Shown here piece by piece: positions 23,736 to 33,587 of a DNA stretch of 64,000 nt. The notes beneath the pieces were generated by a model that saw nothing but the letters and a program-made list of their open reading frames with translations, made no database searches and had not been told where the DNA came from. Position numbers and translations under genes: made by a program. Source of the DNA: a bacterium (Candidatus Blackallbacteria) CG13_big_fil_rev_8_21_14_2_50_49_14. Its GTDB lineage: Bacteria; Cyanobacteriota; Sericytochromatia; UBA7694. The stretch covers positions 1-64,000 of the forward strand of contig PFGG01000007.1 of the NCBI GenBank assembly GCA_002783405.1, given 5' to 3'. Position 1 is the first letter of the stretch, and each line of letters begins with the position of its first letter.

Positions 23736-24880
23736 CAGCAGGAGAATCTCATGGGCCCGCTTTAATGGGCATTTTAGAGGGCCTGCCTGCAGGGCTTGAA
23801 ATTTCACCCGACTATCTGCAGGCCCATATGAAGCGCAGACAGCAGGGTTATGGGCGTGGTCGGCGTCAGCAGATCGAAACCGATCATGTACAGATTCAAT
23901 CAGGGGTTCGGCACGGCAAAACCCTCGGCAGCCCAATTGGGCTTTACCTTCCCAATCAAGACTGGCGCAACTGGGAAGACACCATGTCAGTCACGCCGAT
24001 TGAAGGCCCGATTAAACGTGAGGTTTTTGTTCCCCGACCCGGCCATGCCGATTTGGTGGGCGGCATCAAATACGATCACCCGGATCTGCGCAATGTGCTT
24101 GAACGGGCCTCTGCACGCGAAACCGCCATGCGTGTCGCCTTGGGAACCCTGGCGCGCAGATTTTTAGAAGCCCTGAATATCCAGATTGCCAGTCGCGTGG
24201 TTTCAATTGGTTCAGTCCAGGATTCCCACCCCCTGGATCTGGCTGTGTCTGAACTGAATGCCCGTGTCGATGCCTCGCCTGTCCGTTGTCTGGGGGCTGA
24301 GGCAGAACAGGCCATGATCGCTGAAATTGATGCAGCAAAAGCAGCCGGAGATACCCTGGGTGGGGTCGTCGAAATCTATGCCGAGGGCTTGCCGATCGGC
24401 TTGGGTTCTTACAGCCAATGGGATCGCAAACTTGAAGCCGCGATTGGCGCAGCGTTCCTCAGCATGAATGCCTTTAAAGGGGTCGAATTGGGCTTGGGCT
24501 TTGAATCGGCACGGGTGCCCGGTTCTCAGGCCCACGATGAAATCCTGCCTGGCGCACAACCCCGCCAGGTCCACTATGCAAGCAACCGCGGGGGCGGAAT
24601 CGTCGCCGGCATGAGTACAGGTCAACCCGTGATCATCCGGGCAGCGATGAAACCAATTGCCACCCTGATGCAACCCCTGCGATCGGTTCACAGCGAAACG
24701 GGCGAAGCCATGGCGGCGCATATTGAACGCTCTGATACCTGTGCGGTTCCGGCTGCTGCCGTAATTGGCGAAGCACTGCTGGCTCTGGTATTGGCTGAAT
24801 TCGTGCTTGAAAAGTTTGGCGGAGATTCAATGGCCGAAATTTATCCCCGGATCGCCTTTTGGCGTGAACAGCACCCCTAG
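23723..24880 (+). CDS. aroC: Chorismate synthase
   Basis: This FMN-dependent enzyme makes chorismate, the last step of the shikimate pathway. The family signatures are GESHGPALMGILEGLPAG (near residue 6), RRQQGYGRGRRQQIETDHV (near residue 33), RPGHADLVGGIKYDH (near residue 100), NRGGGIVAGMSTGQPV (near residue 290) and DTCAVPAAAVIGEALLALV (near residue 340). At 385 residues it has the usual length. The start overlaps the end of aroA by 13 bp, so translation is coupled. Its last 4 bp overlap the next gene on the opposite strand, leaving no room for a conventional terminator. Confidence 0.97.
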   Translation: MRFLTAGESHGPALMGILEGLPAGLEISPDYLQAHMKRRQQGYGRGRRQQIETDHVQIQSGVRHGKTLGSPIGLYLPNQDWRNWEDTMSVTPIEGPIKREVFVPRPGHADLVGGIKYDHPDLRNVLERASARETAMRVALGTLARRFLEALNIQIASRVVSIGSVQDSHPLDLAVSELNARVDASPVRCLGAEAEQAMIAEIDAAKAAGDTLGGVVEIYAEGLPIGLGSYSQWDRKLEAAIGAAFLSMNAFKGVELGLGFESARVPGSQAHDEILPGAQPRQVHYASNRGGGIVAGMSTGQPVIIRAAMKPIATLMQPLRSVHSETGEAMAAHIERSDTCAVPAAAVIGEALLALVLAEFVLEKFGGDSMAEIYPRIAFWREQHP

Positions 24881-25965
24881 CTGCTGAGCGAATAGAGGTC
24901 CAAAACCTCTTGCAGGCCCTTTAAACCTGGGTCTTGGTTTTCTTTGACCGCACGCACCAAAAAATCAAGGGCCAGTTCATTCTGATTCAAGAGAAACAGA
25001 ATACAGGCCAGGGCCCAGAGCGATTCAAAACTGTAAGCATTTACAGAGAGGGCTTTATAAAAAGCTTCTGCAGATAAGATCAGGTTGTGCGGATTTTGAA
25101 ATGCCTCATGGGCCGATTGCTCAAGCCAATAAAAACCCGTTTTCAGATACTCCTGGTAACTGCGGTTGATTTGCGGCAAAGGCAGACCCAAACTGTTCTG
25201 CAAAACCGTTTCTTCAGCGTTTTGCAAAAACGTGATCCCCCAAGCGTATTCTGGTGGTTCAGGCATGGCTTCAGGGAGTTCTGATTTTTGAAAAAAACGA
25301 ACCAGCTCTCTCAGCTCCAAACTTCTCACCCCATGCCCTGTTTTCAGGCGATGCAACGCCTGTGCTACAAATTTACGCAAAACAAAATAGGCTTCACAGG
25401 CCGCCACAAAAGCTTTGAGATAGGCCGCCAGCGCAATTTTTTCTGAAAAACTGAGTGCCTCTGAGGCTTGCATTTCTGCCTCAAAGCCCTGCAAATGTTT
25501 CTGGGATAACAAAAAAGCACTCTCATTATTGAGCTTTAAACTGTCCCAGAACAGGGCACTGATTTGTTGAAATTTTTTATACAGGGCCAGAGAATCCAGC
25601 CTATCGGGGTGCGGAAAAGCTGATAAAAAACTTTCCAATTCGGGTTTCAGAAGCAATAGGCGGCTTTGGATCTGGTTGAGTTGGGCTTGGGCCGCTTCCA
25701 GTTCTGTCGCTACATTCCAACTGGTTTCAGTTTTTCCAAGCTGCTGCAATTCAGCTTCCAGCGAATGCCAAAGGGGCAAAAGGGCTTTTAAATTGCTTTC
25801 CCGACGCAATGACTGTTGAATCAAAGCAAGCTCACCCAAGCCCTCTGGCAGGGCCATATGGGACTGAGAGCGCATCGCTTGCCATGCCAGATTCCAATCG
25901 GTTTGCGCTGCAACCAAGTCTGGCAAATGGGCCTCAAAAGTGTGAAGTGTGAAATCGCTATTCAT
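24877..25965 (-). CDS. Unrecognised 362-aa helical protein, TPR-like C-terminus
   Basis: No family is recognised. The protein is helical throughout, without signal peptide or membrane segment. The last 80 residues look like tetratricopeptide-type helix pairs (AEAFYKALSVNAYSFESLWAL, then LNQNELALDFLVRAVKENQ). The start is ATG at 25965 with a poor ribosome binding site (GAAAAGAAAAC). It diverges from the DUF5939-type gene across only 86 bp, so the two share a promoter region and perhaps a function. It is one of several long helical proteins in this window. Confidence 0.78.
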   Translation of the reverse strand: MNSDFTLHTFEAHLPDLVAAQTDWNLAWQAMRSQSHMALPEGLGELALIQQSLRRESNLKALLPLWHSLEAELQQLGKTETSWNVATELEAAQAQLNQIQSRLLLLKPELESFLSAFPHPDRLDSLALYKKFQQISALFWDSLKLNNESAFLLSQKHLQGFEAEMQASEALSFSEKIALAAYLKAFVAACEAYFVLRKFVAQALHRLKTGHGVRSLELRELVRFFQKSELPEAMPEPPEYAWGITFLQNAEETVLQNSLGLPLPQINRSYQEYLKTGFYWLEQSAHEAFQNPHNLILSAEAFYKALSVNAYSFESLWALACILFLLNQNELALDFLVRAVKENQDPGLKGLQEVLDLYSLSS

Positions 25966-26051
25966 GTTTTCTTTTCAAATATAGCGTATTTTGCGATCGC
26001 TGGGTTTGATTCAAGTACAATGGGTAGAGTTTGAAATAGAAAGATCGTGGT

Positions 26052-27779
26052 ATGTTTCCCGAACTTCAAAGCCTCTCCCAAGCGCGCAAAAAAGCCAAAT
26101 CGAAACAATTTGAACTGCGCCTGGCCTTCTCCCCAGAACGGGTATGGGAGCAGATTTTTGATCTGAATGCCCTGCATTTAAGCATGGGCGTTCCCGCTGA
26201 AACCAGAAAATTTTTTCAGCACAAGCTAGGCCTTTCACAGGTTTCTTCTGCCCTCTGGGGCCCTCTCCAAGCGTTTTGGGAGTTTCCCCTGAGCTGGGAT
26301 TATCTCAGATTTTACAGATTGGAACGCCTTGCTCCCCGGCAAAGCTTGAGCTATCTGGCCTGGCAGTTTGATTTGAAGCCAGAGGCAGAAGGAACGCTCT
26401 TGCAGGTCAAACTTTCGTATCTGCTTCAGCCGCCAACCCCCGCCTTTGAAAAAAAATTCGAACTCTATCTTTCTGCTTTAAACAAACAGATTCTGCAGAC
26501 ACTGAATCTGCAGGAAGCTTCTGAAACAAAGTATCCTGCTTTGCCAGCGGTTCCCAGTCTCACCCAAAAGGCTGCACGCCTCACCCAGCACCTGGCCAAT
26601 CATCAGGGGGCAGTACATCCCCTCATGCTCGAAACAGCTACAGGCATCGCACGGGAGCAAATTCTATGCGCCTTGATCGAGTACAGCTACTTGGGGCTTT
26701 GCTCTCCTTTCTGGCGAGTGCTGGAACCCGATGGCACCCTGCTAACAGAACTCAAAGCACCCGCCAAACTGCCGACTGAATACCCAAGTCAGAAATATGG
26801 CCAAAATTATAAAATTCAACCCGATATTCATCTTTCGCTTTGGTTCAGAAAACCAGAGACGGAAGGTACTCCCCCCTCCCCTTTTCCACGCTCGCAAAAG
26901 CAACGTCTGGCTCAGTTTTGGCTTGGGCCTGGAGAGACCCATACTTTAACGCCCCAAAGCTTGGGAGCACTTCGCATCGCCTCTCCCAGTTTATCTGGGC
27001 ATTTGCATCTGCGCATCGCACCCCGAGGAGCAGAGGAAGTCACCATCCAGGTCAAAGATCGACTCGAAGACAGTGAATGGCCCATTCTGGCCTTGGATGG
27101 CCGTTTAAAACTGCAATGCCAGGTTCCAGAAGGCGCAGTCTTTTATGCCTATTTGCCCTATGCGCCTCAAGAAGGCCTGAGTGCGGCTCAAGCCATGAGC
27201 AGCGAAAATTTAAAGTATTTATTACCTGAATTGGAAACGCTTTCAGGAGACACCTGGCGAATCACCCAGGAGGTCTTTTTAGCCCTTGGCTTCACCTCAA
27301 AAGATGGCCTTTCAGGCCCTGATCAAGCCACCCTGCTTCAGGAAATCTGTTTAAAATACTGTGGTCGCAGGCTCAAAACCACCCCAGAAAACGCCCTGAT
27401 GATTTTTCCCTGGGCTGAATCAGGCTTACAGGCTGCCCTGCAGATTCTGAAGCAGGTAAAGGCTTGGAATCAGCTCTTGAAGCCCGAAAAAAAACTTCAA
27501 GTCGCTTTGGCTCTGCATCGCGGTGGAGCTGATTTTTCATCCCAAGGCAGTGCTTTACAGGCCTCTGGCCCTGGGCTCAGAACCACTTTGCAATTGCTTG
27601 AGCAGGCAAAACCCAATCACTTGGTGTTTTCACGCACCCTGATGATGGATCCAGAGTTTCAAACTGCTTTGCAAAAATCTGAAGAAATCACCCTGTATGA
27701 GCTTCACCGCTTTATTCGGGCGCGCTCGCAGGAACCCGACCGAATCTATGCACTGCTGCTCAAACCTGGGGCGGATTGA
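26052..27779 (+). CDS. DUF5939-type protein with a degenerate class III cyclase domain
   Basis: The first 130 residues resemble the SRPBCC-like start of DUF5939 proteins, which precede adenylate cyclase domains (FSPERVWEQIFDLNALHLSMG near residue 26). Residues about 185-265 resemble the winged region that follows, though the usual zinc CxxC pairs are absent. Residues about 403-540 align with a class III cyclase, but the catalytic positions are gone: the FxDIxGFT metal site reads FLALGFT (residues 409-415), the GDxxMA Asp site reads TPENALM (444-450), and the NxxxR pair reads RTTLQ (510-514). It cannot be an active cyclase by known chemistry. A regulatory or nucleotide-binding role is possible. 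The cyclase part was matched by eye. Confidence 0.7.
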   Translation: MFPELQSLSQARKKAKSKQFELRLAFSPERVWEQIFDLNALHLSMGVPAETRKFFQHKLGLSQVSSALWGPLQAFWEFPLSWDYLRFYRLERLAPRQSLSYLAWQFDLKPEAEGTLLQVKLSYLLQPPTPAFEKKFELYLSALNKQILQTLNLQEASETKYPALPAVPSLTQKAARLTQHLANHQGAVHPLMLETATGIAREQILCALIEYSYLGLCSPFWRVLEPDGTLLTELKAPAKLPTEYPSQKYGQNYKIQPDIHLSLWFRKPETEGTPPSPFPRSQKQRLAQFWLGPGETHTLTPQSLGALRIASPSLSGHLHLRIAPRGAEEVTIQVKDRLEDSEWPILALDGRLKLQCQVPEGAVFYAYLPYAPQEGLSAAQAMSSENLKYLLPELETLSGDTWRITQEVFLALGFTSKDGLSGPDQATLLQEICLKYCGRRLKTTPENALMIFPWAESGLQAALQILKQVKAWNQLLKPEKKLQVALALHRGGADFSSQGSALQASGPGLRTTLQLLEQAKPNHLVFSRTLMMDPEFQTALQKSEEITLYELHRFIRARSQEPDRIYALLLKPGAD

Positions 27780-28053
27780 GTTCTGCCTGCCGAAAAAACG
27801 CAGCCCAGACTTGGTCCAAGGCCTGTCCATTGGCAGGGGCCTTGATCTGATCCAGCCAATAGTCATTCACGCTCTGCTCTCTTTGCGCAGAACCCGCTTT
27901 CAAGGCAAGCTCCACCAAAGGCCTCAACCCCTCAGGCTCCTCGGCACGTACGCGTCCATCTTCCAACATGCGCTCCAAGGCCCCCTTTAAGATACGGGGA
28001 TGCTTGGCTTCTAAATTCTCGAGACGGTTTTCAGCTTGAAAATGATCTGCCAT
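27760..28053 (-). CDS. Small 97-aa helical protein
   Basis: The ATG at 28053 follows GGAG by 7 nt; a longer frame to 28092 starts inside the neighbour and is rejected. The product (MADHFQAENRLENLEAKHPR) is charged and helical, with no motif I recognise. It starts 1 bp after the stop of the 28055 gene and overlaps the convergent 26052 gene by 20 bp at its 3' end. It is probably the last gene of a four-gene minus-strand operon that begins at 30656. Confidence 0.6.
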   Translation of the reverse strand: MADHFQAENRLENLEAKHPRILKGALERMLEDGRVRAEEPEGLRPLVELALKAGSAQREQSVNDYWLDQIKAPANGQALDQVWAAFFRQAELNPPQV

Positions 28054-28054
28054 T

Positions 28055-28639
28055 TTAGTCTCCCTGCTGGGCCCGAAAAGTTTGTAGCACAAGGGCCTGT
28101 AAGGGATGATAAGCGCCTTGCAGGGCCTGCCAGCGCTCGCTCAGGCCCGCTGGTGTAGTCGAAATCAAACTGCTTTCTAACTGCGCTTTGAGATCAGCCC
28201 AGGCAGGCAATCCCTCTTTCGAACTGACTGCTCTAGCTTCAGGCACGGGCAAAACCGGCAGCAAATCAAAATTGATGCTGACAGCCTGTATTTCTACAGG
28301 TGATAAGCTCACAGGTTTGTTCACAAGCTTCATCAAAAGGCTTTTGGCAGAGTCGAGATCCGCATGGGGCGTACAAACTTTTTCGGCGTGCAAAAGAACC
28401 TGCCAGGCGCGGGAATACTCCCTTAAAAGTGCAAAAATCCAAGCCAAGCAAAGATAGCCCTCAAGCCGTTTGAAATCCAACTCCATCAAGCGGTAAGCCA
28501 GTGCTACAATGCCCTGCAAATAGCGCAGATCCTTAAATTCGTTCTGACGGGCAGCCTGCGTCAAAACCCCCAGCGCCCGTAAGCACTGGGCAATTTTATC
28601 GTCTCGCGTGGGCAGAGCAGCGGGCGGGCGTGGGTTCAC
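28055..28639 (-). CDS. Unrecognised 194-aa helical protein
   Basis: The likely start is GTG at 28639, which overlaps the previous stop as GTGA, so translation is coupled to the glycosyltransferase-like gene. The longer frame to 28753 would lie over that gene. The product is helical, with Leu/Ala-rich pairs (AYRLMELDFKRLEGYLCLAW, then LREYSRAWQVLLHAEKV) that recall short TPR-like repeats. No family is recognised. The position suggests a helper for the transferase upstream, but nothing else supports this. Confidence 0.65.
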   Translation of the reverse strand: MNPRPPAALPTRDDKIAQCLRALGVLTQAARQNEFKDLRYLQGIVALAYRLMELDFKRLEGYLCLAWIFALLREYSRAWQVLLHAEKVCTPHADLDSAKSLLMKLVNKPVSLSPVEIQAVSINFDLLPVLPVPEARAVSSKEGLPAWADLKAQLESSLISTTPAGLSERWQALQGAYHPLQALVLQTFRAQQGD

Positions 28640-29679
28640 AGATAGCGATCCAAGGAATTCAAGATCTCGGCGCACTTTTGCGCACTGCTGCCATAGGTTG
28701 AAGCAAAGAAGCGCTCTTTGAGCATATTCTTTTTGCGGAAAAACCGTTCCCAAGGGGCCTCGTCTTCCAGCAGGGCATGAAACTCATCCAGTCTCGATTC
28801 AGGTTTTAAAGTCGGCAAATAGGAGCGCAGGGTAATATCTGAAGAGCCAAAGCCCACATACTCGTGTTCGGGGGCAAAGGGCACACTCAAGAGAATCAAA
28901 CGCTTATCACAGTAAAGCGGAGGAAAGGGGGTATTGCCGTAATCTGCAAAAACCGTATCGGCCAGCAAGAGCAAGGGCAAAGTATCCATCGGACGTTTCA
29001 AGACCGAGGTAAAGGGCAATTGATCCAGCAATTGAATCCGCTCGTATTCTTCAAGCAAGGTATAATCATGGGGTTTGACCAAAACATTGTAGCGATCGGT
29101 CAGGGCAGCCATGCGTTCTGCATAGATATCAATCGAGGAAAGTCCTTCAAAATAGGGCAGCCAAAGAATCGTGGGTTTGTGGGGGTCACAGCCAAAGTGT
29201 TCGTTTAAAGCCTCATAATCCGGGTTCCATTCCTGAAAGAAGGGGTCATACTGGGGCCAGCCCACTTGAAAAATCCAGGAGCGCTCACAAAATTTTAATT
29301 TTTTCTCCTGGTAGCGTCCAAAACAGAGAATCATATCGTAGAGTTTATTCCAATTGTTCAAATGCAAGCGATCGCAGCCCAGTTCAGACGAAAATTTGAT
29401 CTGACGGCTGCCCAATTGATTCATCAGTTGGTAGTCATGCAGAAAAATATGATCTGAGATCAAGTAGCGGTAGAGGGTTTTCGATTGCAACAATTCAGAA
29501 ATATACGAAAAACGGTATTCTTCAGCCGCCATAATATCCAGCAGAGATTCTGAGGCTTCGTCAGGCAAGACAATATCAAAACTGTCACGATCCAATAAAT
29601 TCAAGACATTGCGGTAGTTAAAATACATTTCGGGGATATGAAATAAAAACCCCATTTTCGGCACCTGTAAATAACTCAT
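28636..29679 (-). CDS. CDP-glycerol glycerophosphotransferase-like (TagB/F-type GT-B) protein
   Basis: The 347-residue protein has the GT-B fold features of the CDP-glycerol glycerophosphotransferase family: ILWLPYFEGLSSID (start of the second domain, near residue 170), NVLVKPHDYTLLEEYER (near residue 198), and LADTVFADYGNTPFPPLYCDK (near residue 239), where the family binds the nucleotide. Members build teichoic-acid-like polymers in Gram-positives and act on surface glycans elsewhere. In a diderm the acceptor is probably a surface polysaccharide. No membrane segment is seen. It overlaps the serine/threonine dehydratase by 4 bp. Confidence 0.65.
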   Translation of the reverse strand: MSYLQVPKMGFLFHIPEMYFNYRNVLNLLDRDSFDIVLPDEASESLLDIMAAEEYRFSYISELLQSKTLYRYLISDHIFLHDYQLMNQLGSRQIKFSSELGCDRLHLNNWNKLYDMILCFGRYQEKKLKFCERSWIFQVGWPQYDPFFQEWNPDYEALNEHFGCDPHKPTILWLPYFEGLSSIDIYAERMAALTDRYNVLVKPHDYTLLEEYERIQLLDQLPFTSVLKRPMDTLPLLLLADTVFADYGNTPFPPLYCDKRLILLSVPFAPEHEYVGFGSSDITLRSYLPTLKPESRLDEFHALLEDEAPWERFFRKKNMLKERFFASTYGSSAQKCAEILNSLDRYL

Positions 29680-30656
29680 GCCTGGCCTTCAGCCCCTGAA
29701 GCCCAGGGCAAAAGCCCCAGATCGAGGTTGCCTCCTGAGAGAATCACAGCGGCACTTTTTCCCTTCAGACTAAGTTGCCCAGAGAGTAAAACCGCAAGGG
29801 GGACTGCCGCAGAGGGTTCAATCACCAATTTCAAACGCTCCCAAATCAAGCGCATGGCGGCAATAATTTCAGATTCTCCCACGCAATAAATCGCCTGAAC
29901 ATATTCCAAAATCAAGGGAAAAGTCAAACTGCCCAAAGAGGTCAAAAGCCCATCACAGATCGTTTTGGGAGCTACAGAAGGCAGGAGTTGTTTGGCCTGA
30001 AAAGAGCGAAAGGCATCATCTGCGCCCTGGGGTTCACAGCCTATCACCTGGGTTTGGGGGGAAAGAAAGTGAGCGGCAAGGGCACTGCCACTGAGCAGAC
30101 CACCGCCCCCCACAGGAGCGAGTAAATAATCCAGCTTCGGGGCCTGTTCCAGCAATTCCAGAGTGGCTGTGGCCTGACCGGCAATCACGCGGATATCGTT
30201 ATAGGGATGCACAAAATGGGCGCCGGTTTCGGATTGCACCTTGGCCAAGCTGCGCTCACGGGCTTCAAGTGTCGCTTCGCATTCCACAATCTCTGCGCCA
30301 TAGCCTTTGACCGCGTTCTTTTTGACCTGGGGAGCATTTTCGGGCATCACAATCCAGGCCGGAATTCCCCGTTCACGGGCAGCACGGGCCAAGGCCTGGG
30401 CATGGTTTCCAGAGGAATGGGTAGTGACCCCCTTTTTCAGAGTTTCAGGTGAACAGAGCGCCAAGGCTGCACTGGCACCACGAAACTTAAATGCGCCTAC
30501 TTTTTGAAGATTTTCACACTTAAAAAAAACAGGGCCCCCACAGAGCGCACTGATTTGCTCAGAATGTACGACGGGTGTCTGATGCACCTGTTCTGAGATC
30601 AGCGCATGTACCTGTCTGAGCATGAAAAGATCGGGTTTCTGATAATTGTCTGCCAT
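29676..30656 (-). CDS. Threonine dehydratase / serine racemase-type PLP enzyme
   Basis: This fold-type II PLP enzyme (326 residues) has the lysine motif ENLQKVGAFKFRGA (near residue 49), SSGNHAQALARAA (near residue 75), and the phosphate-binding VGGGGLLSGSALAAH (near residue 175). The short length, without a C-terminal regulatory domain, is typical of catabolic threonine dehydratase or serine racemase, which share sequence. These convert L-threonine or serine to keto acids, or interconvert L- and D-serine. The start is placed at ATG 30656; an upstream ATG at 30734 reaches into the divergent gene. The operon partner is the TagB/F-like gene. Confidence 0.85.
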   Translation of the reverse strand: MADNYQKPDLFMLRQVHALISEQVHQTPVVHSEQISALCGGPVFFKCENLQKVGAFKFRGASAALALCSPETLKKGVTTHSSGNHAQALARAARERGIPAWIVMPENAPQVKKNAVKGYGAEIVECEATLEARERSLAKVQSETGAHFVHPYNDIRVIAGQATATLELLEQAPKLDYLLAPVGGGGLLSGSALAAHFLSPQTQVIGCEPQGADDAFRSFQAKQLLPSVAPKTICDGLLTSLGSLTFPLILEYVQAIYCVGESEIIAAMRLIWERLKLVIEPSAAVPLAVLLSGQLSLKGKSAAVILSGGNLDLGLLPWASGAEGQA

Positions 30657-30732
30657 TGATATCCACAAGGGTTTAATCGTACACTGAACTGGAGCGCATT
30701 GTACCACTATTCCAGGACTTGCTGGGGCCGCC

Positions 30733-30954
30733 ATGAAAGACTACCTGAAACATCTTTTCGATTTCCGAAACCTGTTTCAACCGCAGAAATTTAAATATAT
30801 CAATATGCTGCTGTTTACTTCGATCGCCTTCAACGGCTATCTTCAGTATTTTTTTCGGCACGTAGAAGCAGAAAGAAGCCTGTATCCCGGCATTGGGTTC
30901 ACGCTGATTCTGATTTTGTATCTGTTTATGGTCTGGCATCGGGAAAAACCATGA
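30733..30954 (+). CDS. Small two-helix membrane protein
   Basis: The 73-residue protein has two hydrophobic segments (INMLLFTSIAFNGYLQYFF, near residue 23, and GIGFTLILILYLFMVW, near residue 53) and a basic N-terminus and C-terminus. No family is recognised. Its stop overlaps the dioxygenase start as ATGA, so it is a real co-translated gene rather than chance. The ATG follows GCTGGGG. The role may be to anchor or regulate the dioxygenase at the membrane. Confidence 0.72.
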   Translation: MKDYLKHLFDFRNLFQPQKFKYINMLLFTSIAFNGYLQYFFRHVEAERSLYPGIGFTLILILYLFMVWHREKP

Positions 30955-31760
30955 ACTATCCCCAGTTGACATTTACAGCCCAGGATCTTTCCCTGCCAGA
31001 TCTCCTCCAGGCCTTGGAGCAAGCCGGTTGTGTCCGCATCAATGGCCTTTTTCCCCAAGCAGTCATGACAAATCTCGCCCAATGGAGTGAAAGTGCCTTT
31101 GCCCAATTCGATTATCAACGTTTAACAGATACCCTGGACCCCCTCTTAAAAGACTATTTCGCATTGGTGCCCCATATGATCAACCATTTACCAGGGGCCT
31201 GTCTGCATTTGTTTAAGGGGGATTCTGATTTTTTGTACAAACTGTTTTTGGCATCCCCCCTGCCTGATATTTTGCATGCCCTGTATCGCGGCCCCTTTCT
31301 CTATTCAAGTATTCACGCCGTGATTCGCCGTCAAACCCTCAAGGAACCCCAATGGTATACAGGCTTTCACCAGGATGGGCACTTTCTCAATCCCGATTGG
31401 AAGTTTTTGCATTGTTGGTCACCCTTGGTAAGCTGTGGCGTTGACCGACCGGGTTTGGAGCTGATCCCCGCCGGGCTGAAAGCAATTCGCCCCCTCAGTC
31501 AAAAGCCCTTTCGGGGTGAGCATTTTTATGACAATCGCGATTTAGATCTTGAAAGCGAAATCTTGCCCTATTTTCCTGCAGAAAGCTTCTGGATGGAACC
31601 CATGCAACCTGGTGACGCCTTATTCTATGACAGTTTCTGCCTGCATCGCACCTATCTTACCTCCGAAATGACCCAGCCCCGCTACAATCTCGAGATGCGC
31701 TTTTTGCCAGCAGTTGATTTACCCGCTGAAATTGCACAACTGGGTTTTATTCGCGTTTAA
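30951..31760 (+). CDS. PhyH-type Fe(II)/2-oxoglutarate dioxygenase
   Basis: The 269-residue protein has the double-stranded beta-helix pattern of the phytanoyl-CoA dioxygenase family: YTGFHQDGHFLNPDWKFLH, giving the HxD iron ligands near residue 140, and a distal FCLHRTYLTSE with the third His ligand near residue 227, followed by an RYNLEMRFL segment whose Arg would hold 2-oxoglutarate. Members hydroxylate fatty acyl groups, halogenate or modify natural products. Translation is coupled to the preceding small membrane protein by a 4-bp overlap. The 3' end overlaps the convergent 31757 gene by 4 bp. Confidence 0.82.
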   Translation: MNYPQLTFTAQDLSLPDLLQALEQAGCVRINGLFPQAVMTNLAQWSESAFAQFDYQRLTDTLDPLLKDYFALVPHMINHLPGACLHLFKGDSDFLYKLFLASPLPDILHALYRGPFLYSSIHAVIRRQTLKEPQWYTGFHQDGHFLNPDWKFLHCWSPLVSCGVDRPGLELIPAGLKAIRPLSQKPFRGEHFYDNRDLDLESEILPYFPAESFWMEPMQPGDALFYDSFCLHRTYLTSEMTQPRYNLEMRFLPAVDLPAEIAQLGFIRV

Positions 31761-33517
31761 GAGCGCTGGTAAAGAAGTTCCAAGGCCTGACGGTAGATAT
31801 CATCGGCCTCAGACTCAAGCTCTTGCGCATGTTCGGGATCAAATTCTGCCAGCCGACGCAAGGCCGTTTGCCAGGCAAAAAGCAGTTCCGTATCATCTTC
31901 TGCAATTGAACAGGCCTGGGCATAGGCCTGACAGGATTCTAACAAAAGTTGACGGCTTTCTTCACCCGACCGATGTTCAGCCAGGGTTTGCAAATAAGAG
32001 GCCAAATTGGCAAGATTAAAATCGCAGGTATGCCGATTCAGCAACATCGCATAGAGATTGTGCAGCATTTCCAATAAACGCTCAAATTGTCGAGAACGTG
32101 AGCGAATCAAAAGCTCAAGCAGGGTTTCACGGTTGTCAATAATGATATGTTCATCCGGAGAACAGGCTATCAAGGCCATCCAGGCATTTTCCATGTGTTG
32201 AATCAAGGCCTGCGAAACAGGGTCATGCTGCCTGTTCTGCATCAAACGTTGACTGAGAATATCCAGCCAAACTTGCTGGTAGCCATCCTCATCCAACCAG
32301 CCCTGTAAGAGCATTTCAGCCAGAATCAGGTAAAAACCATGGGCCAGCTCCAAAAGGCTCTGGGTTTCAAGTGCAGAGATCATCGGCAAAAGTGCCCCCA
32401 ACCAATTCGCACAGCCCTTAGCCGCCTCGGGAAAGCCCTGTTCCAGCCAGTTTTGCAAGAGCTGAGCAAGATTCTGCAAACCCGTCTGAAATTCAATCTC
32501 AGCCACAGTGGTTTGAAGCATTTGCGTCAATTGCAGGCAAGCCCGTAGCCAACTGAACTCTGTTTTGCCAACAGACACCATCTCGAGCCAGGCTTCAAGA
32601 TAATGCGCGCTCTGGCTGTGGTTGAAGCTCTGGGTTTCAAGCTGCATCAAGAGGCTGCGATGGAGGCGCTGGAGCGCTGACAAATAGTGTTTTTTCTGCT
32701 GCTCGGTGAGCCAAAAGGCCCGTTCTTCAACAGAAAGGGTTTGATCATAAAGCCAATTTTTGGTAAGCAATTTGAAAAGGGTTAAATTTTCTGAAAAGCT
32801 GAGATTTTGAATCAGGGCATACCAAAGAATTTCAGAAAATTCTAGCCGGGGAGGATAGGGCTGGGGATTGCGCAAAAGCGCACAGAGCGATTGCCAGGCC
32901 TGTTTATAAAGCATTTTTTGGCCTTCGCTGGCATAACAGGCCTGGTAGAGCAAAGAGGTGGCCAGAGCGCTCTCACTTTCCGAGTTTTGTGGTTTCCAGT
33001 GCTTGGCCTGAAGAAAACTGTGGGTCGCGGCCTGAAGAAAGGGCTGGCTGGGGGGAGAGGAACTGAGCGCAATCTGAAAAAGCAATTCTGCGCGCAGAAA
33101 AAGCAATTCCCCATTCCATTCAGAATGCATTTTACCAAAATATTGAAAAAAGCCTTCTGCAAATTGAAAAATCCGTTGATAGAGTTCAGGCTCCAAATCA
33201 GAAAAATTTTTAAATTTGCTGAGAAACCCGAGCAGAAGAAAGAGTTCATCGGGGGCCGGATATACCTGCTCTGAATACTCAAGACAAATTCGCTCCATCA
33301 CTTCCAGGAGCCAGGTTTGAGTGGGTTGGGCTTGAAACAGATCCAAAAGCGCATCCAAACCCTCCAACCAGGTTTGAAACTGGGGATCAGCCGTCAGGCT
33401 GTCACGGAAATGCTCAATGCCCTTGGCGTATAAAAAACTGAAATCAGGATCGGCTTTTTTCAGGGCCAATCTGAAATAACGCTGGCTTTTCACAAAAGAA
33501 TTTCTGGCCTGTATCAT
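31757..33517 (-). CDS. Unrecognised 586-aa helical protein
   Basis: The protein is helix after helix, with Leu, Gln and aromatic residues and no membrane segment or signal peptide. Several blocks look like degenerate repeats of 35-45 residues, e.g. LTQMLQTTVAEIEFQTGLQN and HGFYLILAEMLLQGWLDEDG. No family is recognised. ATG at 33517 lies 9 nt after AGGGTG and was preferred over GTG at 33529. It is monocistronic, followed by the dioxygenase on the other strand. It looks like a scaffold or solenoid protein. Confidence 0.75.
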   Translation of the reverse strand: MIQARNSFVKSQRYFRLALKKADPDFSFLYAKGIEHFRDSLTADPQFQTWLEGLDALLDLFQAQPTQTWLLEVMERICLEYSEQVYPAPDELFLLLGFLSKFKNFSDLEPELYQRIFQFAEGFFQYFGKMHSEWNGELLFLRAELLFQIALSSSPPSQPFLQAATHSFLQAKHWKPQNSESESALATSLLYQACYASEGQKMLYKQAWQSLCALLRNPQPYPPRLEFSEILWYALIQNLSFSENLTLFKLLTKNWLYDQTLSVEERAFWLTEQQKKHYLSALQRLHRSLLMQLETQSFNHSQSAHYLEAWLEMVSVGKTEFSWLRACLQLTQMLQTTVAEIEFQTGLQNLAQLLQNWLEQGFPEAAKGCANWLGALLPMISALETQSLLELAHGFYLILAEMLLQGWLDEDGYQQVWLDILSQRLMQNRQHDPVSQALIQHMENAWMALIACSPDEHIIIDNRETLLELLIRSRSRQFERLLEMLHNLYAMLLNRHTCDFNLANLASYLQTLAEHRSGEESRQLLLESCQAYAQACSIAEDDTELLFAWQTALRRLAEFDPEHAQELESEADDIYRQALELLYQRS

Positions 33518-33587
33518 GGTTTCAATCACCCTGTTTGTTCACGTAAGTTCTATCATAACAGGGTTTACAAGGGAGAAGACAAGCGAA

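Follow-up and report, generated by a model that had tools for sequence, protein, structure and literature searches.

The window, i.e., the complete stretch of 64,000 nt that was analyzed (contig PFGG01000007.1 of assembly GCA_002783405.1, positions 1-64,000; host Candidatus Sericytochromatia), carries a gene for a protein in which an SRPBCC, a DUF5939-like and a class III cyclase-like region follow each other (Table 1). The open reading frame starts with ATG and comprises 575 codons without internal stops. Neither the protein nor its orthologue (L004) is recognized by Pfam or NCBIfam, and an annotation would read 'hypothetical'. A Pfam scan of the window protein yields no significant family, the sole line being an insignificant NIR_SIR_ferr hit (E = 0.018): DUF5939 (PF19363) is not matched at E ≤ 1 and the Guanylate_cyc threshold is not reached either. 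No significant family emerges from the NCBIfam scan, a direct protein scan of genome contigs gave no match, and a sequence search of solved structures with the window protein as query returned chance matches only. A simple scan therefore fails to confirm the DUF5939 label, which had been proposed in an earlier reading of the DNA sequence alone (hereafter the sequence-only reading).

Table 1. Coordinates of the pseudo-cyclase gene, its domains and altered sites, and the neighboring genes in the window.
Feature	Position	Strand	Basis or remark
TPR-like helical protein, 362 aa, candidate partner	24877..25965	-	Weak TPR matches; divergent orthologue
Intergenic region, 86 bp, common to both divergent genes	25966..26051		ORF coordinates
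Pseudo-cyclase gene, 575 aa	26052..27779	+	ORF; profile match with intact DUF5939 cyclases over the full length
SRPBCC (helix-grip) domain, residues 1-160	26052..26531	+	hhalign 97.3%, same region of intact relatives
DUF5939-equivalent region, residues 173-370	26568..27161	+	hhalign 96.1%; below Pfam threshold
Zinc Cys positions, residues 225-249	26724..26798	+	E225, G228, S246, Y249; first-knuckle deletion
Catalytically dead class III cyclase domain, residues 402-570	27255..27761	+	AlphaFold2, Foldseek against PDB, hhalign 97.3%
First metal Asp, now G413	27288..27290	+	Alignment
Second metal Asp, now E446	27387..27389	+	Alignment; Asp in orthologue L004
N-x-x-x-R pair, now R510 and Q514	27579..27593	+	Alignment; identical in L004
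Remaining conserved block	27760..33529		Same block and relative orientations in G001 (L053), identities 42-73%
Block gene: small/helical	27760
Block gene: small/helical	28055
Block gene: glycerophosphotransferase-like	28636
Block gene: PALP enzyme	29676
Block gene: PhyH-like	30951
Block gene: 590-aa helical protein	31757

Profile comparison does place the protein among the DUF5939 cyclases. It is collinear with them along its full length (535 columns, hhalign 99.2%), and each of the three regions separately matches the corresponding region of intact members with the values given in Table 1, using query profiles built from the window protein and L004 only. Column-shuffled controls of the cyclase domain (n = 20) did not exceed 0.7%. 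The Pfam DUF5939 match itself is present in a paralogue from the same genome (C69) and in relatives from other Sericytochromatia, and the window protein can be aligned along its whole length with these relatives as well as with the intact DUF5939 cyclases. Membership of the family, as proposed in the sequence-only reading, is thus upheld by profile homology and collinear domain order despite a score below the Pfam cut-off. The DUF5939-equivalent region comprises a helical part, the former zinc-ribbon hairpins and a beta domain. For residues 1-160, which the sequence-only reading had not described as a domain, the AlphaFold2 model displays a helix-grip secondary structure; this region has no direct Pfam match in the window protein, while its counterpart in relatives matches Polyketide_cyc2 or Polyketide_cyc.

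The cyclase fold had been claimed to be traceable to its end (residues 403-540), and it is predicted here for residues 402-570. Based on an alignment of 27 rows (the window protein and 26 relatives), AlphaFold2 reached a mean pLDDT of 79.4, with mostly 70-92 per ten-residue block across residues 402-555. Strands and helices occur in the order expected for a cyclase; only the first helix behind the metal loop is absent. Class III cyclase domains (Rv1900c, Ma1120, CyaC and soluble guanylate cyclase) dominate the Foldseek matches in the PDB, with a TMt of about 0.7 for the compact ones; among those listed, Rv1900c, Ma1120, CyaC and S. pomeroyi domains span 0.58-0.76. Ma1120 is also the solved sequence nearest to an intact relative. 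Rv1900c, Ma1120 and CyaC differ from the window protein in being enzymes whose metal and Asn-Arg residues are intact. Because intact cyclases are part of its input alignment, the model cannot count as independent of homology; modeling residues 397-575 without any alignment yielded no usable structure (pLDDT 48.5). Profile search and structure prediction of this region, which the sequence-only reading had put forward as checks, thus agree in returning cyclase homology and a cyclase fold.

Residue positions were read on an alignment of 50 family proteins. All four core catalytic residues (D, D, N and R) are replaced in the window protein (G413, E446, R510 and Q514), as the sequence-only reading had stated; the second metal position is nevertheless still acidic. 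The loop that carries the first Asp and binds phosphate, in the region of the first helix, is shortened by about 11 residues, and R510 and Q514 are embedded in a conserved motif, SGPGLR...QLLEQA. The adenine-selecting Asp has become Q503; the adenine-selecting Lys is kept as K442, but it is a Gln in L004. In the latter, the catalytic positions read G, D, R and Q, i.e., three out of four are changed. A displacement of the catalytic residues, which the sequence-only reading had named as contrary to its claim, was not seen: the alignment offers no conserved Asp or Asn-Arg pair that could take their place, and D418, located just past the position of the first Asp, is not shared by L004. The claimed loss of the zinc-binding CxxC pairs was also borne out. 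The four Cys residues (CxxC...CxxC) are kept in 48 of the 50 family members and are missing only in the window protein and L004.

L004 originates from another species of the host's genus (GenBank MAG_89), likewise counts 575 amino acids and is 42% identical to the window protein over 569 aligned codons. Fourfold codons that are conserved between both genes agree in the third base in only 34% of the cases, which is near saturation, and the two proteins form a long branch in the tree. Their identity is unevenly spread: it amounts to 48% in the cyclase domain and is lowest in the SRPBCC domain (31%), and it drops to 7% in the former metal/phosphate loop (residues 411-425) as opposed to 68% in the helix of residues 454-475 and 75% in the former Asn-Arg helix (residues 505-520). 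Conserved motifs specific to this pair are FPWAESGL, HRGGA and SGPGLR. Constraint thus appears to have shifted from the metal site to the helices, a pattern that would fit a contact role. To judge from the sequences, the protein has been conserved while its catalytic residues were lost, as is expected of a pseudoenzyme. The term pseudo-cyclase, which had been used before for this gene, is warranted by the fold, the full-length homology, the loss of the four core residues and the conservation in a second species.

Gene decay is argued against by the same orthologue, as the second species keeps the protein, the TPR-like neighbor and the gene block. The lost enzyme hallmarks and the long branch are what a decaying gene without function could leave behind; nonetheless, both copies are open and of equal length, and at this level of protein identity their silent sites are near saturation while the domain structure is kept. 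Decay is thereby largely refuted and hardly credible. The divergent helical neighbor that had been noticed in the sequence is indeed present and conserved beside L004. It is weakly TPR-like: its orthologue, at 39% identity, matches TPR_8 (E = 0.0015) and is divergently oriented to L004 too. Together, the pseudo-cyclase and the TPR-like gene are situated at one end of the conserved block. In two other genomes (G002 and G003), the glycerophosphotransferase-like gene is present and the pseudo-cyclase and helical protein are not found beside it, so that, among the genomes examined, the pair is confined to the genus of the window (two species). No kinase is fused to the window protein and no kinase gene lies beside it. 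A PADLOC check gave no indication of an anti-phage role.

Broken catalytic sites are more widespread in the family. The comparison covered 29 DUF5939 loci from GTDB genomes, to which those in 81 genomes from the family group of a Gemmataceae locus (L069) and in 18 genomes of the window's class were added. D, D, N and R are intact in 32 of the 50 proteins compared and broken in 18, which divide into the window clade (n = 2), zinc-keeping paralogues from the same Sericytochromatia family (n = 4) and proteins fused to a kinase (n = 12; L067, L069 and L111-L120). The four paralogues (L002, L005, L023 and L049) have all four catalytic residues changed and, in some cases, a shorter loop; unlike the window protein they keep the zinc Cys residues, and three of them (L002, L005 and L049) match Pfam DUF5939. 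Among the 18 broken proteins, zinc loss is confined to the window clade. With support of 65/60, the tree is compatible with a single origin as well as with separate origins of catalytic loss for the window clade and the zinc-keeping paralogues. Eleven of the kinase fusions stem from the Gemmataceae group and one from a Myxococcales genome. They contain the same SRPBCC-DUF5939-pseudo-cyclase module with two to four of the four catalytic residues changed, but differ from the window protein by the attached kinase-fold domain, which is N-terminal in all twelve and has a detectable HRD motif in 11, by their retained zinc residues and by their placement in a separate clade.

Outside Sericytochromatia, the split among the members sampled is clean: the catalytic residues are intact in 0/12 fused versus 23/23 unfused proteins (Fisher p = 1e-9, a value that overstates independence, given that all fused proteins belong to a single clade and the unfused set includes several near-copies). 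The correlation with kinase fusion is the more general result of this analysis. In the tree, the fused clade stands apart from the Sericytochromatia pseudo-cyclases, and two or more switches between the intact and the broken state are required. The loss of catalysis in Sericytochromatia and, separately, in the bacteria with kinase fusions suggests that the cyclase shape is reused as a regulatory part. The twelve fused cases, being one clade, may nevertheless represent a single event.

What the window protein does instead of catalysis can be approached through this recurrence. A combination of DUF5939 with a dead cyclase that comes back as a module on another output makes it somewhat probable, in our judgement, that the window protein is a non-catalytic sensor-scaffold and descends from an adenylate cyclase of the SRPBCC-DUF5939-class III type; we favor this reading because dead cyclases recur in SRPBCC-DUF5939 modules, elsewhere with a kinase attached. 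Such a protein would produce no cyclic nucleotide, a step that is well supported by the residues lost. Given its domain class, the N-terminal SRPBCC domain would offer a pocket for a hydrophobic or lipid-like ligand, the DUF5939 region would relay the ligand-induced change, and the dead cyclase domain, in which the fold and the former Asn-Arg helix are kept, would act as a protein-contact module, as its conservation pattern suggests. As its output, it would touch another protein; the simplest candidate is the TPR-like protein encoded divergently, for which the conserved gene pairing is the one pointer. The TPR-like gene is part of a larger conserved block, hence this pairing could also be passive synteny. 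The sequence-only reading had suggested a cyclic-nucleotide or lipid sensor. The former finds no support in the window protein, which has lost most nucleotide-binding residues and contains no cNMP-binding domain; the latter is plausible solely by virtue of the SRPBCC domain, which had not been named in support of it.

Other roles for a cyclase-shaped protein have to be weighed against the sensor-scaffold. Class III cyclases are dimers with their active sites at the interface, the metal Asp residues being supplied by one protomer and the Asn-Arg pair by the other. A regulatory subunit that silences or tunes an active cyclase would find candidate partners in the host genome (G000, 5.65 Mb), where 11 Guanylate_cyc matches (an intact DUF5939 cyclase, C74, and ten others) occur alongside 33 matches to the cNMP-binding domain; within the cyclase domain of the window protein, conservation is highest in the former Asn-Arg helix. 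Yet, both half-sites are damaged, so the window protein could not complete the active site of a partner but only block it; moreover, the C74 cyclase lacks an SRPBCC domain and belongs to a distant subfamily, and the pseudo-cyclase gene is not linked to the gene of any cyclase, which makes this role unlikely. Binding of a nucleotide without turnover, with an allosteric effect as in degenerate GGDEF domains, could draw on K442 in the window protein and on the acidic second metal position, where a Glu (Asp in L004) might still bind a metal weakly; the loss of the first Asp, the Asn, the Arg and the base-selecting Asp, the shortened loop and the substitution of K442 by Gln in L004 render it quite unlikely.

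Since SRPBCC domains often bind lipids or hydrophobic ligands, and a PhyH-like and a glycerophosphotransferase-like gene occur in the conserved block, the SRPBCC domain might be the functional part (in lipid binding or transport) and the cyclase domain a passive remnant. The higher identity of the cyclase domain compared to the SRPBCC domain is, however, the opposite of what a passive remnant would show, and we regard this option as improbable. A new catalytic activity by shifted residues, to which the clade-specific motifs could be taken to point, is very improbable as no conserved new acidic pair lies near the metal site and the nearby D418 varies between the two species.

Placed among known systems, the window protein resembles the DUF5939 (PF19363) cyclases with an N-terminal SRPBCC domain in domain order and collinearity, and departs from them by its scores below the DUF5939 and Guanylate_cyc thresholds and by its lost zinc and catalytic residues. 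Class III cyclases are a large family of signaling enzymes, and the window protein is a pseudoenzyme of this family, a kind of protein that is known in general. Degenerate GGDEF domains and the alpha subunit of soluble guanylate cyclase are examples in which an enzyme fold is kept for regulation. This use of enzyme folds by pseudoenzymes has been reviewed (PMC10211241), in a text that does not mention cyclases. Our literature search found no paper on DUF5939 and nothing relevant on bacterial pseudo-cyclases. We tentatively propose that SRPBCC-DUF5939-cyclase is a ligand-sensing chassis that may have lost catalysis at least twice, the output being redirected to a fused kinase in Gemmataceae and Myxococcales and to stand-alone contacts in Sericytochromatia; the window clade would be the extreme case, having lost the zinc ribbon and acting with a TPR-like partner. 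Receptor guanylyl cyclases consist of a pseudokinase and an active cyclase, and if the chassis reading is true, the combination of an active kinase with a pseudo-cyclase would be their bacterial mirror image. The split between fused and unfused members would, if confirmed, raise the question of what a cyclase fold does without a messenger, and it would provide ligand-sensing kinases that can be tested.

Some further observations concern individual family members. Within the added Gemmataceae group, 11 of the 81 genomes encode a single DUF5939 protein, which in every case is fused to a kinase and has a broken cyclase domain; L112 combines a degenerate kinase motif with C-terminal TPR as well. 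The window's genus also harbors a separate subfamily of intact DUF5939 cyclases without an N-terminal SRPBCC domain (L014, i.e., G000:C74, L050 and L051). Two loci on contigs titled as Klebsiella pneumoniae MAGs (L074 and L084) group with Myxococcota, and these titles are probably wrong. In the zinc-keeping L049:502-2395 (G001:C51), the N-terminal SRPBCC domain is encoded in a different, overlapping frame, which reflects a frameshift, an assembly error or two genes. The zinc-keeping L002:13-1317 (G000:C69) is located directly 3' of a phosphorothioation-associated putative methyltransferase (TIGR04096, E = 4e-156).
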